Assembly: GCF_013745115.1 (NCBI RefSeq)
Contig: NZ_CP051151.1
Location: forward strand, 1,674,001 to 1,738,000
DNA: 64,000 nt
DNA from: Hujiaoplasma nucleasis
GTDB taxonomy: Bacteria > Bacillota_I > Bacilli_A > Izemoplasmatales > Hujiaoplasmataceae
Reading direction: 5' to 3'
The notes under the pieces: generated by a model
What the model saw: only the letters and a program-made list of their open reading frames with translations
The model's database searches: none
Told to the model about the DNA's origin: nothing
Program-made: the position numbers and the translations under genes
In this document: positions 32,141 through 38,162 of the stretch, piece by piece
How the letters are laid out: every line of letters starts with the position of its first letter
Position numbering within the stretch: the first letter of the stretch is position 1

Positions 32141-32215
32141 GGAACTATAGCTCAGTGGGAGAGCACCTGCTTGACGTGCAGGGGGTCGGGGGTTCAAGTC
32201 CCTCTAGTTCCACCA
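32141..32215 (+). tRNA. tRNA-Val (anticodon GAC), intact
   Basis: 75 bases including an encoded CCA. The acceptor stem pairs GGAACTA with TAGTTCC; D arm GCTCAGTGGGAGAGC; anticodon stem CCTGC/GCAGG with loop TTGACGT, giving GAC for Val GUC/GUU; T arm GGGGGTTCAAGTCCCTC. A promoter precedes and a terminator follows. Its 3' half is repeated, degraded, at 33850-33909 and 36468-36522, marking it as an integration target. Confidence 0.96.
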
Positions 32216-32227
32216 TTTTGGCTAAAT

Positions 32228-32266
32228 ATAGGAATGATACTTTTTGGTATTATTCCTATTTTTTTA
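32228..32266 (+). terminator. Terminator of tRNA-Val
   Basis: ATAGGAATGATAC TTTTT GGTATTATTCCTAT TTTTTTA. A diverged version follows the first tRNA fragment at 33924. Confidence 0.88.
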
Positions 32267-32398
32267 TAAGGATAGTATATATATATAATTATTTATGATA
32301 TACTATATTTGAAATCAACAAAGTAATTACTTATTTTTTAATAAACTTAAAATTTTGGATTATGATATTTAAAATTTAATTGTAATGGGTGATTCGTA

Positions 32399-33655
32399 AT
32401 GAAAACGTTATTTGTTATAGTTTTATTATTTTTTACTGCTGTATCTTTAGTGGGGTGTGGTGGTGAAGGGAGCTTAACCACCACACCTACTGGTGATTTG
32501 ACGACGACTGAAATCCCAACAACAACGACACAAGACCCAACAACATCATTGATGGATGAAATTTATTTGCTATATTCTGGTTCATATTCTAACTTTCATG
32601 ATTTTAATGAGCCAATCACATGGATTACGTCATACAATGAATACTTAAATTCAGATTATTCATTTGAATTAAATGAAAGATTCTTTGATGATTATAGTCT
32701 CTATACTTACGCATTTTTTTATAGTAACTTGGGAAAAGATATATTTTTATATGATACCTATCTTATAGTAGATAACAATCTTTTTATCACATGTAGACCT
32801 GCTGACGAAGGACAAGTTTCTCCAGCTTTTGGAGATTATGCGATTGTATTTGCTATTCCCAAAATAATGTTGGGTGAAGATATTGAAGTTTTTTTATCAC
32901 TTAGTGGTGGTACTGATATGATATTTGATAACTCTACTACAATAAGAAGTATGGCTAGATTGAAACTACTTTATTTTGAGATAACAGAAGACCATGAATT
33001 TGGTATTAATTTTGATAGAGAAGGTGTGTGGCCAATTACAGCAATTACGGGTAGATTATTTAACATATCAGATAATCAAGAAATATCCATGACTATGTTC
33101 TCTGGCCTTTATGGTTATCATGCAATATTAGAACCAGGTCAATATGTATTTATCTTGGATATTGGAAATAATGATGAAGAGGATGATTTATTTTATATAT
33201 TTGATTATCATGCGAAACTGCATAAATTAAACAGTACTGAGTTTTGGAGTAACACCATCACCGAAGAGTTTTTACTTGATACAGAGTTCACAAGTATAGA
33301 CGCAGCGGAGGAATTTTTGATTGAGTATAAGACGAATGATATGACATATTATTCAGTTGACGCATTCAGTGATTTATCAAATACCCTTGATCAGCTGACA
33401 ACACTAATCGTTGATAGAAGTGGTTTACCCGAAAGCGATAAGTGTGAGAAGGATCATTGTCAATATATTATTATACCTTTATTTAGTACCTGGATCTTTG
33501 ATGATTATAATTTGGATTCATCATACGCAGATGGAACAATAACATTTTCTATATCTATCGTGCCATCAGTCTTACCTGCGACCATGGTTAAAGTATTAGT
33601 TTTAAGAGTTGATTCGGACTATTCGTATGAGATCGTTATTAATCCGGAAGACTAA
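32399..33655 (+). CDS. Predicted surface lipoprotein, cargo of the tRNA-Val locus
   Basis: 418 residues. A signal peptide ends in the lipobox SLVGC (Cys20), then a Thr/Pro-rich linker (about residues 27-50, repeated TTT and PTT), then a soluble domain with many aromatic and acidic residues and two Cys (CEKDHC) near 345. No domain is recognised. It lies alone between the intact tRNA and the first tRNA fragment, so it was probably brought in by an integrated element. The 183-base gap before it holds the tRNA terminator and an AT-rich promoter-like stretch. Confidence 0.8.
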   Translation: MKTLFVIVLLFFTAVSLVGCGGEGSLTTTPTGDLTTTEIPTTTTQDPTTSLMDEIYLLYSGSYSNFHDFNEPITWITSYNEYLNSDYSFELNERFFDDYSLYTYAFFYSNLGKDIFLYDTYLIVDNNLFITCRPADEGQVSPAFGDYAIVFAIPKIMLGEDIEVFLSLSGGTDMIFDNSTTIRSMARLKLLYFEITEDHEFGINFDREGVWPITAITGRLFNISDNQEISMTMFSGLYGYHAILEPGQYVFILDIGNNDEEDDLFYIFDYHAKLHKLNSTEFWSNTITEEFLLDTEFTSIDAAEEFLIEYKTNDMTYYSVDAFSDLSNTLDQLTTLIVDRSGLPESDKCEKDHCQYIIIPLFSTWIFDDYNLDSSYADGTITFSISIVPSVLPATMVKVLVLRVDSDYSYEIVINPED

Positions 33656-33718
33656 TTGAATGAAAATAGTATAACTAGACATTAAACAAATACTAAGAAA
33701 AAATAAGGTCCATCTATT

Positions 33719-33848
33719 TGATGGTCCTATTTTTTATGATAATTAGGCAAGGAAAACATCATTTGATTTACAAGGGTCAAACAAGGGTCAAAATAAGGGT
33801 CAAACTATATTTTTTATTACACAAACGTCTATATTTAGACCTTTTTAA
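33719..33848 (+). pseudogene. Element-end remnant: integrase-tail-like sequence with tandem arm-site-like repeats
   Basis: Just upstream of the first tRNA fragment, a short open frame (33750-33848) encodes DLQGSNKGQNKGQT before a stop, reminiscent of basic Gly/Lys/Gln tails at the C-terminus of tyrosine recombinases. The DNA contains three tandem copies of AAGGGTCAAA (about 33773-33805), which could instead be arm-type integrase-binding sites. A homologous, more decayed copy is at 36351-36467. No complete integrase gene is present. The assignment is inference. Confidence 0.5.
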
Positions 33849-33849
33849 A

Positions 33850-33909
33850 GGGTAGAACACTTGCTTGATGTGCAAGGGGTCGGGGGTTCAAGTCCCTCTA
33901 GTTCCACCA
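33850..33909 (+). repeat. Degraded copy of the tRNA-Val 3' half (att-like), copy 1
   Basis: From the anticodon stem to CCA the sequence nearly equals the tRNA at 32141-32215: CGGGGGTTCAAGTCCCTC and TAGTTCCACCA are unchanged. The D arm and 5' acceptor strand are missing, and the anticodon loop reads TTGATGT. It cannot form a tRNA. A 3'-half tRNA duplication is the classic scar of tyrosine-recombinase integration. Confidence 0.85.
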
Positions 33910-33923
33910 TTTCATCAAATTAT

Positions 33924-33959
33924 AGGAGTAATAGTTTTTAAGCTATTGCTTCTTTTTTT
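33924..33959 (+). terminator. Hairpin after tRNA fragment 1, homologous to the tRNA-Val terminator
   Basis: AGGAGTAATAG TTTTTAAG CTATTGCTTCT TTTTTT with wobble pairs. Sequence and position parallel the terminator at 32228-32266, so duplication extends past the CCA. Confidence 0.7.
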
Positions 33960-34045
33960 GTATAATTTTATAAGGCATATAATATATACTCTGTTTTTAT
34001 GTTATTATGTTTGTGATAACATACAATAGAAAAATGAGGTATTCG

Positions 34046-34202
34046 GAAAGAGAAAATTAATAATATTCTCAGCTATTTTCGGAATATCTCTTCTTACTTT
34101 ATTTGGGATATATTTTTATTAAAAATGGGAGTTTGGGTTTATGTTGACCTAGTAAAGGATGTTTCAAGTAATTATTTAGAAGAAGTTTATGCTTATGATT
34201 AA
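34046..34202 (+). pseudogene. Possible frameshifted small membrane-protein remnant
   Basis: One frame encodes KRKLIIFSAIFGISLLTLFG, a convincing membrane helix, ending at a TAA near 34120. A second frame continues to 34202 with WVYVDLVKDVSSNYLEEVY. Joined by one frameshift, these would make a small membrane-anchored protein. No start with a ribosome site is obvious. Within the 650-base gap 33656-34306 the rest is the element-end remnant, the tRNA fragment, its terminator and AT-rich sequence. Confidence 0.35.
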
Positions 34203-34306
34203 AATCTTGCATACAGTCTATCTAAATTGGTGTTAATATAGTATAGAAGACAAGTAAATTAAGCATTTAATTTTTACGACAGAATTGAGAAGGAGTAAAT
34301 ATAGTA

Positions 34307-34876
34307 ATGACAAAAAGTGAAAAAGATTTGGTGTTAAAGGAGTTTAATTATTTAAATACCAAATACCATTTTGAACAAACCACTATATTGAATGATTTTA
34401 TCAGATTTGGAAGGAATGATGATAAATTAAATATTGAGTTTTGGTATGAAAACTATACATATCAAATGTATATAATATTAATCTATATTAGTGATAGTGG
34501 TTTTCAACATAAAATATATTTTAAATCTTATTTAGATTTGAAGGGTGACAAAAAGGAAGTAGAATTTACTTCAACAAAAACCAATTTCCCTAATCTTGTA
34601 AAGAGGCTAGCGAATATTTTAAGATTATCAATAGAAGAAATCTTATCAAAGAATGATGATGATTGGGATTCATTAATTAAAGTTCACAAAAATGATCTAA
34701 AACTTAAAAGGGAAGAAATTGATAAGAAGAGAATTGTAAATCAATCAAATCAACTATGGAATGAAAAGAAGTACAAAGAGTATTGTAGCCTACTTGAGGA
34801 TACCCCCTATGAATTAAGTTCTTTACAGATATCAAGAATTAAGTATGCAAAAAGAAAATATAGGAATAATCAATAA
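34307..34876 (+). CDS. Hypothetical protein, cargo of the tRNA-Val locus
   Basis: 189 residues, soluble and charged, with no recognised domain. The N-terminal part is mixed alpha/beta with many aromatics; the C-terminal part (residues ~140-189, QLWNEKKYKEYCSLLED, then ISRIKYAKRK) resembles the helical tail seen in many small bacterial orphan proteins, some of them immunity-like. AGAAGGAG precedes the ATG. It lies between the two tRNA fragments with the DUF4143 ATPase gene. Function unknown. Confidence 0.7.
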   Translation: MTKSEKDLVLKEFNYLNTKYHFEQTTILNDFIRFGRNDDKLNIEFWYENYTYQMYIILIYISDSGFQHKIYFKSYLDLKGDKKEVEFTSTKTNFPNLVKRLANILRLSIEEILSKNDDDWDSLIKVHKNDLKLKREEIDKKRIVNQSNQLWNEKKYKEYCSLLEDTPYELSSLQISRIKYAKRKYRNNQ

Positions 34877-35120
34877 CGTAAATGGATATATTTTGGATAT
34901 AATGTGTATTTATATAAAGAAAGCAGAAACGCAAAGAAAGTTTTTCTATAATTGTTAATAAGAAAGATTTTTATCCACTCAAGATTTTATACTTTAAAAA
35001 ATGATTATTGTTTTTATTATAATAAATTAAAAACTTATTATATTTACACTTTTTTTTAATGCAAATATAAAAACTTGCATTAATTACGCTTAATTTGTAT
35101 AATATATGTAGAGGTGAAAT

Positions 35121-36311
35121 ATGATTAATAGACCATTGTATTTGAACAAACTTGTAAAAACAATAGATAATGACCTGGTTAAAATATTAGTTGGTGTACG
35201 TAGAAGTGGTAAATCAACTCTTTTAAAGATGATTAAACAATATTTACTAAATCATAATGTTCTTGAAGAACAAATCATCGATATTAATTTTGAATTAATT
35301 GAAAATGATTATTTGAAATCCAAAGATGCGTTTATTGCTTATGTAAAAGAAAATTTAGTTTTAAATAAAAAATCATATCTATTTGTTGATGAAATACAAG
35401 AATTAGATAATTGGGCAAGGATTATCAATTCATTAAAAGTATCTGAGAACATTGATATCTATTTAACTGGATCAAATGCAAGATTATTCATTGGAGATCA
35501 TTTAACATATTTAGCTGGCAGATACATTTCGTTTAATGTGTATCCCTTATCTTATGAAGAATATTTAAAGTTTAAAAATATTGTTGAAGTAAATTTCAGT
35601 TTTTATAATGAGTTTTTAGATTCCAGTTTTCCGGCCTTGGTTTTAGAAACACATGATGACATAAAAACCATGATGAAACAAGATATGTTTGATACTATTT
35701 TTAGAAGAGATATGATTATGAGAGGAAATATATCGAATGAATCTATGTTTTTTAGAGTTGCAAGATATATCTTAGAACATATTGGTTCTTCAATATCAAT
35801 CAATAAAATAACAAATACATTAAACTCTTTAGGACTGAAAATATCTTACGGAACAATCGATAGTTATATAGATTTAATGACGAAATCATATTTTATCTAT
35901 CAATGTCAAAGGTATGATATTAAGGGAAAAGAGATTTTAAAAACAAATGGAAAATATTATGTCGTAGATTTTGGCATAAGAGACCAACTTATTCCGAATA
36001 AAACCACAAATACCGGTAAGGTTCTAGAGAATTTCATATATTTAGAGCTAGTAAAACATGGTTACAATGTTTATGTTGGGAAAATAGGAAGAGACTTAGA
36101 AATAGATTTCGTCGCAACTAAAGATGATAAAAAGTTATATATACAAGTTTCACAATCTGTCATAGATCCTAAGACTAGAGAAAGAGAAATCAAACCTTTT
36201 TCATTGTTAAAAGACATGAGTAAACGTTACTTGGTTTCATTTGATTCAGTTATGATTGAATCAGATTATTTCGAACATTTAAACGTGATGGATTTTATTA
36301 ATAAATTATAA
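35121..36311 (+). CDS. AAA-family ATPase with C-terminal DUF4143
   Basis: 396 residues. VGVRRSGKSTLL (~24-35) is the Walker A motif, LFVDEIQELDNW (~89-100) Walker B, and LTGSNARLF (~117-125) sensor 1. The C-terminal half has the DUF4143 pattern (YVVDFGIRDQL, NFIYLELVKHGYNVYVGK, EIDFVA) with a nuclease-like EIDF...YIQVS core. These proteins are common accessory genes of anaerobes without known function. TATAAT (~35098) and GAGGTG precede it. It is cargo between the tRNA fragments. The 244-base gap before it shows only this promoter. Confidence 0.88.
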   Translation: MINRPLYLNKLVKTIDNDLVKILVGVRRSGKSTLLKMIKQYLLNHNVLEEQIIDINFELIENDYLKSKDAFIAYVKENLVLNKKSYLFVDEIQELDNWARIINSLKVSENIDIYLTGSNARLFIGDHLTYLAGRYISFNVYPLSYEEYLKFKNIVEVNFSFYNEFLDSSFPALVLETHDDIKTMMKQDMFDTIFRRDMIMRGNISNESMFFRVARYILEHIGSSISINKITNTLNSLGLKISYGTIDSYIDLMTKSYFIYQCQRYDIKGKEILKTNGKYYVVDFGIRDQLIPNKTTNTGKVLENFIYLELVKHGYNVYVGKIGRDLEIDFVATKDDKKLYIQVSQSVIDPKTREREIKPFSLLKDMSKRYLVSFDSVMIESDYFEHLNVMDFINKL

Positions 36312-36350
36312 AAAGATCATAAGTCAAAAGAAAGGACAAACAAACTATGG

Positions 36351-36467
36351 TCCTATCTCTTTATGATAAATAGTCAAGGAAAAATCATGAAATTTATAAA
36401 GGGCAAAACAGGGATCAAATCATATTTAGAATAAATGAATGTCTTTATTTAGGCATTTTTCACAAAT
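36351..36467 (+). pseudogene. Second element-end remnant, homologous to 33719-33848
   Basis: ATGGTCCTAT, TTTATGATAA, then TCAAGGAAAA and AAAGGGCAAAACAGGGATCAAA align in order with the block before tRNA fragment 1, but the coding frame is broken by several stops. Only two degraded copies of the AAGGGTCAAA repeat remain. It lies immediately before tRNA fragment 2, in the same relative position. Confidence 0.5.
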
Positions 36468-36522
36468 AGAGCACCTGCTTGACGTGCAGGGGTTCGTGGT
36501 TCAAGTCCCTCAAGTTCCACCA
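36468..36522 (+). repeat. Degraded copy of the tRNA-Val 3' half (att-like), copy 2
   Basis: AGAGCACCTGCTTGACGTGC, identical to the tRNA D-arm end and anticodon arm, then GGTTCAAGTCCCTC and AGTTCCACCA. The 5' strand of the acceptor stem and most of the D arm are missing, so it is not a functional tRNA. It keeps the GAC anticodon, unlike copy 1. Confidence 0.85.
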
Positions 36523-36534
36523 TTTTTATGAAGT

Positions 36535-36594
36535 AACTTCCTATACTAGAAACATGGTATATTAGCCATGTATTCTAATATTGGAAGTTTTTTT
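36535..36594 (+). terminator. Long hairpin after tRNA fragment 2
   Basis: AACTTCC (36535-36541) pairs with GGAAGTT (36583-36589), with an inner TAGAA-ACATGG / CCATGT-TTCTA stem, then TTTTTT. This is the third tRNA 3' end followed by a terminator. The rest of the gap to 36713 is AT-rich with no gene seen. Confidence 0.75.
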
Positions 36595-36713: not shown

Positions 36714-38162
36714 ATGAAAAAAATTTTATTATTAGTTAATGTAGTTTTAGTTTTACTAATATTAGCTTGTCAAGAACAAACTATGACTACTTCATATATT
36801 ACTGAAATAACTTCAATAGAGAACATTACTGAAGAAGATTCTAATGAGCCAACATATGCTTCTACTGAGTATAATATTGAATCATTATACAAAGTTTTTC
36901 CTATGGAACAAATGTCTTCGGACTTAGATTATGAACTTACTGGATTATTAGATGGAAAAAATTTGATTACAATTATGCTTGAGTCTGGAGTATCTGAAGC
37001 TATTAACCCAGTTTTAACTCCAACCTTATATCAATTGACTCAAGAAGGAATTTATTTTTCTAATCATTATACTGAAAATAAAACATATATGTCGGAAATG
37101 ATAGGTATTTTGGGAAATTATCCTTCTTATAATTTTTCTACTAATTCTTATGAGTATGATTTGCCATTCTCTTTACCCAATATATTTAATGCAAGAGGAT
37201 ATAAAACAGTATATTTTCATGAAAATATTGGTTCGTTTTTTTGGAGAGATGACCGAATACCGATGTTTGGTTTTCAAGAATCGTATTTTCATTTCGATTT
37301 CTTTCCAACAGAACCTATATATGGTTGGGGAGGAGATTACACTTTAGATTCCAGAACGATGGACGCAATGATGCCTTATATGTTTAATGAAGAAGAAAAT
37401 CAACCATTTTATTATTTTTGGACTACATTGGTAACTCATGGACCTTATAATCGAAACTATCCTAGTGATAGAGGAATGAATAATTTGAAAAAATTTATAC
37501 AACTTGGATATTTTGATTTAATTGACCAAGCAAAAGAAAACGGACAATGGATTAATCCTCTAGATTCAATTGGAGAAGAAGCAGCAGGACAATTTAGATT
37601 TTATCAAGCAGCAATGATGGATTTTGATATTGCCTTGAACAAATTAATAACTCAACTAACTGAGAAAGAACTAATAGATGACACGTTAATATTGATTTAT
37701 GGTGATCATGCTTTTTATCACGATGGAATCAATGAGTTAATGTTAGAAGCAACCAATCCCAATGCACATGAGAAAGAAATGTATCAAACTTTCTTTGTCT
37801 TATATAATCCTGAATTATCTGAAATTTATATGAATTATCATGATTCACATCAAAATGATAAATTTATAAATCCCTACGATATAGCGCCAACCCTTTATCA
37901 ACTTTTTAATATTGCTTATTATGAAGAGTTTATTCATGGGCATAGTGTATTTTCTAGTGAAGAATCAATTTTCTATTCACATAAATTGGATGCCTACTTT
38001 AATGATGATTTTTATACAGTTTCATTAGACAAGGTTGATTATTCAAATATTGATATTGATCCTGAATTAAGCATAGAATTCTTAGAACAAGTCAATATAT
38101 TTTACGAAAAACAAGCATTTTTTGATGCTTGGATATATAGTCATAAAACGAAGCGAGACTAA
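36714..38162 (+). CDS. LtaS-like sulfatase-fold enzyme anchored as a lipoprotein
   Basis: 482 residues. The signal peptide ends in lipobox LILAC (Cys19), followed by a Thr/Glu-rich linker and an alkaline-phosphatase/sulfatase catalytic domain. MLESG (Glu ~90), ENKTYMSEM (candidate nucleophile Thr ~124), VYFHENIGSFFWRDD, THGPYN (~241) and YGDHAFYH (~330) follow lipoteichoic-acid synthase order. Classic LtaS has five N-terminal membrane helices; here they are replaced by a lipid anchor. It may transfer or hydrolyse phosphoglycerol at the cell surface. It lies just past the tRNA-Val array. Confidence 0.85.
   Translation: MKKILLLVNVVLVLLILACQEQTMTTSYITEITSIENITEEDSNEPTYASTEYNIESLYKVFPMEQMSSDLDYELTGLLDGKNLITIMLESGVSEAINPVLTPTLYQLTQEGIYFSNHYTENKTYMSEMIGILGNYPSYNFSTNSYEYDLPFSLPNIFNARGYKTVYFHENIGSFFWRDDRIPMFGFQESYFHFDFFPTEPIYGWGGDYTLDSRTMDAMMPYMFNEEENQPFYYFWTTLVTHGPYNRNYPSDRGMNNLKKFIQLGYFDLIDQAKENGQWINPLDSIGEEAAGQFRFYQAAMMDFDIALNKLITQLTEKELIDDTLILIYGDHAFYHDGINELMLEATNPNAHEKEMYQTFFVLYNPELSEIYMNYHDSHQNDKFINPYDIAPTLYQLFNIAYYEEFIHGHSVFSSEESIFYSHKLDAYFNDDFYTVSLDKVDYSNIDIDPELSIEFLEQVNIFYEKQAFFDAWIYSHKTKRD

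Follow-up and report, generated by a model that had tools for sequence, protein, structure and literature searches.

Hujiaoplasma nucleasis probably carries a short array of trans-mobilised, integrase-less cassettes behind tRNA-Val(GAC)

The window analysed here is a stretch of 64,000 nucleotides (positions 1674001-1738000) of the single-contig 1.81-Mb chromosome of Hujiaoplasma nucleasis (NZ_CP051151.1; genome G000). At 32141-36594 of the window, tRNA-Val(GAC) is followed by two partial copies of its own 3' end, each closing a segment that carries one or two genes. This region is probably a short array of trans-mobilised, integrase-less cassettes, integron-like and resembling cis-mobilizable elements (CIMEs), and not two independently decayed islands. 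The reading is suggested by discrete units with a shared attachment (att) block, a fixed distance between arm-type repeats and tRNA-derived core, and a shared polarity. The same cassette also occupies two tRNA loci, and the same att layout is found on integrase-bearing relatives.

The initial annotation had described an intact tRNA-Val(GAC) with two 3'-end copies around cargo segments, which ARAGORN and chromosome-wide matching confirm. tRNA-Val(GAC) is the sole tRNA that ARAGORN finds in the window. Elsewhere in the chromosome its 3' part has only two strong matches, at 33851-33939 (E 2.9e-23) and 36468-36526 (E 1.1e-18). Thus, the copies are neither chance matches nor a repeat dispersed through the genome. 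A fourth chromosomal match to tRNA-Val (74%) resembles an ordinary tRNA. Fragment 1 is 92% identical to tRNA-Val nucleotides 17-78, and fragment 2 is 93% identical to nucleotides 20-79. Copies in the other genus that holds such arrays, and copies of tRNA-Gly, begin at about nucleotide 27-28; all reach the 3' end of the tRNA. The locus is laid out as follows.

32141..32215, forward strand: intact tRNA-Val(GAC), presumed primary attachment site with attB in the anticodon loop (ARAGORN; Rfam RF00005, 69.9 bits)
32216..33912, forward strand: cassette 1, 1.7 kb, delimited by tRNA-Val and fragment 1
32228..32259, forward strand: terminator hairpin 3' of tRNA-Val (homologous G001 hairpin, z -5.4)
32399..33655, forward strand: predicted lipoprotein of 418 aa, without Pfam or PHROG match
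33710..33760, forward strand: conserved cassette 3' block, a CCATC..GATGG hairpin plus TTATGATAATTAGGCAAGG (alignment across cassettes)
33772..33804, forward strand: three arm-type direct repeats AAGGGTCAAA, starting at 33772, 33783 and 33795 (pattern search)
33851..33912, forward strand: tRNA-Val 3'-end fragment 1, the core (sequence match to tRNA-Val)
33913..36526, forward strand: cassette 2, 2.6 kb, probably composite, delimited by fragments 1 and 2
33924..33953, forward strand: terminator hairpin 3' of fragment 1 (terminator-like hairpin)
34307..34876, forward strand: 189-aa protein without Pfam, PADLOC or PHROG match
35121..36311, forward strand: AAA_14/DUF4143 ATPase, candidate phage-defence gene PDC-S01 (Pfam 7.7e-29 and 6.2e-19; PADLOC 1.8e-127)
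36398..36419, forward strand: two degenerate arm-type repeats, AAAGGGCAAA and AGGGATCAAA (alignment of copies)
36468..36526, forward strand: tRNA-Val 3'-end fragment 2 (sequence match to tRNA-Val)
36530..36594, forward strand: type C structured terminator-like element (covariance model R1, E 2.3e-6)

When about 150 bp upstream are included in the alignment, both copies share a block that is missing from tRNA-Val itself. Its order is a short hairpin, AAGGGTCAAAC-AAGGGTCAAAAT-AAGGGTCAAACT, an AT-rich spacer and the tRNA part, the arms being intact for copy 1 and degenerate for copy 2. The anticodon-loop copy of fragment 1 (TTGATGT, 33865-33871) lies 60 bp past the last arm, and that of fragment 2 (36479-36485) lies 59 bp past the last degenerate arm. 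These arm repeats upstream of each copy are the key feature missed in the first description. Its proposal of att duplications left at a tRNA by a site-specific tyrosine recombinase is backed by the extents of the fragments and by arm repeats at a defined distance. Its terminator hairpins behind both copies are found in part: fragment 1 has one, whereas fragment 2 is followed by a larger structured terminator-like element instead.

Fragments of a tRNA might also arise without site-specific recombination, through transposition or through segmental or tandem duplication of the stretch that holds the tRNA. Fragment 1 and tRNA-Val do have a terminator-like flank in common, as the initial annotation pointed out. 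However, the cargo between the copies is unrelated, each copy runs from the anticodon or D-arm region as far as CCA, and tRNA-Val itself lacks upstream arms. The same structure is also seen with tRNA-Gly, -Pro, -Thr and -Lys. Duplication or transposition is thus barely credible as an explanation.

The geometry of the att block recurs in relatives. The comparison covers 34 family genomes of Candidatus Izemoplasmatales and allied Mycoplasmatota, at species level and with no same-species pairs. They include Mycoplasmatota bacterium zrk2 (CP076020; G001), the metagenome-assembled genome (MAG) GH50 (G003), UBA5729 (G017), UBA5732 (G009), HGW-Tenericutes-5 (G028) and STD2_259 (G023). The arm pattern was located at 24 places, distributed over 9 of the 34 genomes, all of them in two genera; a reversed-pattern control gives none. 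By inspection, all but one of these places precede a Val or Gly core; the exception abuts an integrase remnant. Between the last arm and the anticodon-loop copy there are 59-62 bp at 23 of the 24 cassette sites; one of these 23 has a mutated repeat and measures 62 bp once this is allowed for. The outlier has a 24-bp deletion. The distance is 60 bp in the genus of the window (g1), 62 bp in genus g6 and 59 bp in the degenerate second copy of the window. At this near-constant distance, identity between Val and Gly spacers is only 47%, so that spacer length is kept while spacer sequence is not.

Arrays in relatives are longer than that of the window. In G003, which belongs to the same genus, six cassettes follow tRNA-Val on contig C7 and three more boundaries lie on contig C4, giving at least nine Val cassettes. 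The right flank on C4 is a chromosomal anchor also found downstream of the Val array of zrk2, whose complete chromosome carries a cassette site. In the second genus, Val arrays are present in G017, G028, G009 and G023. In total, 29 cassette intervals were mapped, of which 22 are complete (0.2-5.5 kb, median about 1.8 kb). Open reading frames (ORFs) of at least 70 aa run in the direction of the tRNA in 51 of 53 cases; the two exceptions are the integrase remnant and a probably spurious 76-aa ORF. For ORFs of at least 100 aa, the ratio of co-directional to opposite frames is 47:1 within cassettes versus 77:24 in the flanks (Fisher p 7e-4). The cargo varies among relatives, in keeping with the integration hotspot that had been proposed, and the gene order around the fragments is not conserved. 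An uninterrupted locus joining pyrG-tRNA-Val to the gene at 36714 was not found; G002 and G004 gave no match to this tRNA-Val stretch.

Cassettes are also shared between loci. In G004, tRNA-Gly(GCC) is followed by a DUF4143 cassette that matches 35013-36418 of the window with 85.4% identity over 1.4 kb; it ends in arms of the same kind, followed by a Gly instead of a Val core. This DUF4143 part is the only stretch of cassette 2 in common with the tRNA-Gly cassette, the gene for the 189-aa protein being extra, so that cassette 2 looks composite. Val and Gly cores differ chiefly in the anticodon loop (TTGCTTGACGTGCAA, TTGCTTGCCATGCAA), and both kinds of fragment occur within one array in G003. 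The tRNA-Gly(GCC) locus is empty in G000 and occupied in G002, G003 and G004. Conserved downstream genes lie 0.1 kb after tRNA-Gly in G000 and 0.7-4.6 kb past the last fragment in G002 and G004. A cassette with a MazE-like antitoxin is found in G001 and G004, in a Val and a Gly array (81% identity). An AbiE cassette is common to G017, G028 and G009 (89-93% identity) and a 432-aa ATPase cassette to G017 and G023, in both cases with differing neighbourhoods.

The identity of the arms is indicated by integrases. The tRNA-Gly array of G003 holds a tyrosine recombinase remnant (PF00589, E 2.2e-12; contig C43, L040 7054-7731) whose 3' end abuts two arm repeats. It lacks the N-terminus and, close to the C-terminus, is frameshifted within a poly-A run. 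Intact related integrases are present in G013 (44% identity) and G014 (33%), which belong to sister genera. Their genes also have two 12-bp tandem arm repeats at the 3' end, and 3' fragments of tRNA-Pro, -Thr and -Lys are preceded by similar arms at a distance of 60-61 bp. That these integrase-bearing elements have the same layout identifies the repeats as arm-type sites of a lambda/Tn916-like integrase. The elements in tRNA-Thr and tRNA-Pro of G013 (C20) and G014 are about 22-25 kb long with arm repeats at both ends, and a second Pro fragment with mutated arms in G014 is probably in tandem there too. In several Clostridia genomes, an identical pair of AAGGGTCAAA stands between the 3' end of an integrase gene and tRNA-Leu, -Trp or -Ser. 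The single clostridial integrase examined with Pfam has an Arm-DNA-bind_4 domain. AAGGGTCAAAATAAGGGTCAAAC arms were also seen in MAGs of Clostridia, Oscillospiraceae and Christensenellaceae, where several loci have them flanked by a tyrosine integrase and a tRNA. This distribution suggests that the arm specificity is common across Firmicutes classes. Viral contigs gave no matches to the arm pattern or the integrase remnant; the best phage records for the remnant are streptococcal integrases at about 30% identity.

The initial annotation had read the locus as two ordinary elements, each decayed with its integrase lost. More generally, integrative and conjugative elements (ICEs), integrative and mobilizable elements (IMEs) or prophages may have inserted separately in series and lost their integrase and transfer genes, so that the arrays would be scars. 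Such CIME accretion is well documented (PMC5704250), and it agrees with the decayed integrase in the G003 array, with full integrase-bearing elements of the same att layout in sister genera and with the mutated arms of fragment 2 in G000. Yet among 29 cassettes the G003 remnant is the only one, and the Pfam-matched cargo showed no relaxase, replication or phage-structural genes. In the window, cargo genes have no integrase or conjugation Pfam domains, and the integrase beside att and the transfer or phage genes of an intact ICE, IME or prophage at tRNA-Val were not found. Serial decay also does not account well for an arm-core distance conserved despite spacer divergence, for the uniform polarity and size of cassettes or for one small cassette being present at two different tRNA loci. 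We therefore regard it as unlikely. The units are better described as small, co-directional, integrase-less cassettes with an att block of fixed geometry, in arrays that reach at least nine units in relatives and with one cassette also at tRNA-Gly elsewhere.

Under the preferred reading of trans-mobilised cassettes, each cassette consists of one or more genes with terminators, followed by an attR-type site made of tandem arms AAGGGTCAAA, a spacer of about 60 bp and the core. The core is the anticodon stem-loop and 3' half of the tRNA. Another element would supply in trans a tyrosine integrase of the lambda/Tn916 type that has an arm-binding domain and binds both the arms and the inverted repeat of the anticodon stem. 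Through it, a circular cassette would enter by recombination in the anticodon loop, either that of the tRNA or that of a tRNA copy present in the array. The tRNA 3' half brought by the cassette would restore the tRNA, displacing the old half downstream to become the next boundary. Repeated insertions could build arrays, and two sites could release a cassette again. tRNA-Gly(GCC) would be served by this machinery as well, its anticodon stem-loop being similar (TTGCTTGaCgTGCAA vs TTGCTTGcCaTGCAA). The crossover point, circular intermediates, action in trans, tRNA restoration and any present activity are inferred. In a broader and more tentative form, to which we give somewhat less than an even chance, the arrays could be a counterpart of integrons that evolved independently in wall-less relatives of Firmicutes. 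Small trans-mobilised cassettes would be put into tRNA anticodon loops by a lambda/Tn916-like integrase, traded between Val and Gly loci and kept as a stock of defence and toxin-antitoxin genes.

Several points weigh against the preferred reading. An intact integrase of this clade was not found in the cassette-holding genomes, which leaves action in trans as an inference. The cassettes lack a second, integrase-proximal arm set, which bears on whether they integrate as they stand. The polarity contrast comes mainly from genus g6, and flanks in g1 are also mostly co-directional. Many genomes are fragmented MAGs in which arrays break at contig ends. Four recombinases are encoded by G000 itself, all limited to SAM and catalytic domains; an arm-binding domain was not detected in them, and none lies at the array. 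The array of G000 looks old or stranded, its second arms being mutated and an arm-binding integrase not having been found.

The arrays hold several different AAA_14/DUF4143 ATPase genes at Val and Gly loci, and both of the two tested match the PADLOC candidate PDC-S01. Residues 1-394 of the DUF4143 protein of the window match PDLC04787, the full-length PDC-S01 profile (E 1.8e-127), which makes it a candidate for an antiphage role. Other cargo includes AbiEi/AbiEii, HicAB, Phd-ParE, MazE, an Imm5-like protein, GNAT, ABC exporters, a GGDEF-HD protein, lipoproteins and many proteins without Pfam match. Small co-directional cassettes rich in toxin-antitoxin and unknown genes resemble those of chromosomal integrons. 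A true integron, or a cluster of attC sites lacking integron-integrases (CALIN), would have attC cassettes moved by an IntI integrase. However, the boundary sites here are tRNA 3' ends with arm repeats, and the sole linked recombinase is the phage-type remnant in one array; there is no IntI. No GTTRRRY/RYYYAAC pair comes back at a fixed place across 22 att blocks, which largely refutes this highly improbable alternative. CALINs do resemble these arrays in having small one-way cassettes that each end in a recombination site, in being rich in toxin-antitoxin genes and in having the recombinase elsewhere. Unlike them, the cassettes here combine a tRNA 3' end with lambda-type arms and carry their own terminators.

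Other structured and repeated elements were seen at these loci. The type C element is about 68 nt long, with two nested stems and z about -5.8; it has no Rfam match and weak covariation support. An Rfam search of the array in the window and in relatives gave nothing above threshold except tRNA. The type C element was considered as a defining part of the cassettes and dropped, because a covariance search found it dispersed, in 20 of the 34 genomes (7 copies in G000), mostly directly behind tRNA or tmRNA genes or att-like fragments. G000 also holds a second class of cassette-like units (C1:98363-108573; L225 6371, 9852, 12979, 16553), with a different boundary block of at least about 130 bp. This block is highly conserved (...GGCTAAACTAAGCC...GGGGTGTAATTTTTTCGGGTGGGGGTGTAAAAATTTTNGCTAGGGGTGTAAAATTGTAGCAAAATAGGTCATACAACCCATA) and repeated in one direction 2.4-4 kb apart, enclosing DUF4143, HTH, transposase and unknown genes. 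It is also present in G004 (L226), G013 (L227) and G023 (L228/L229), three genera in all. In G000 and G004, the class-2 array appears inside a variable region behind tRNA-Gly(TCC). Another cargo site in G000 (C1:950000-964000) has tRNA-Ala(GGC), a type C element, a DUF4143-ATPase-like gene, two more genes and a second type C element preceded by a class-2 core end. Remnants resembling the 3' end of ssrA (tmRNA; ...CTTCAGGGACCATCAGCTCCACCA), followed by a type C element, occur in G003 (L209/L210), G001 (L211) and G030 (L214). The G003 locus begins at an intact tmRNA, and these remnants may form a third fragment array, served by a different recombinase.

Related arrangements are known from other systems. 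CIMEs are integrase-less, att-bounded units stacked at the 3' end of one tRNA gene, and are described as decayed elements that share a tandem with an ICE or IME (PMC5704250). The cassettes here agree with this description, with att sites kept, no integrase or transfer genes and presumed mobilisation by a related integrase, for which shared cassettes give indirect support. They differ in being many units of about 1.8 kb with 1-3 co-directional genes at two alternative tRNA loci. In Dehalococcoides, the serine recombinase DsiB targets tmRNA (ssrA) and leaves a 20-bp repeat, and 15 islands without integration module were proposed as cis-mobilizable (PMC3146451). Both systems have tandem islands behind one RNA gene, delimited by repeats of its 3' end, whereas the arrays here have tyrosine-integrase att sites, with arms set at a constant distance and a core derived from the tRNA anticodon loop. 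Additive flexible islands include those of Methylopumilus, with 20-bp repeats of tRNA-Lys (PMC10872708), and the tRNA cassettes of Alteromonas (PMC4119200). According to the passages cited, these share recurring tRNA 3'-end repeats or a tRNA target and variable, often unknown cargo. Unlike the present arrays, their cassettes are often much larger, and a conserved arm block, spacing, cassette polarity or trade between two tRNA loci is not mentioned in the same passages. Tn916/lambda-like integrases with Arm-DNA-bind_4 likewise use two-part att sites with distal tandem arms and a tRNA-derived core, but here such sites persist in arrays without an integrase gene. A description of such arrays in Izemoplasmatales was not found in the open-access literature. 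The distinctive feature is the combination of very small one-way cassettes, a near-invariant arm-core distance and exchange between two tRNA loci.

If the cassettes do move in trans, bacteria would have come to the integron idea, a stock of small one-way cassettes, by more than one route. The one seen here would be built from ordinary tRNA-targeting integrases and not from IntI and attC. The att block provides a simple DNA signature for locating such arrays. Their cargo, which includes DUF4143/PDC-S01 ATPases, AbiE, HicAB, Phd-ParE, immunity-like proteins and unknowns, is a place to seek new defence genes in the little-studied Izemoplasmatales.

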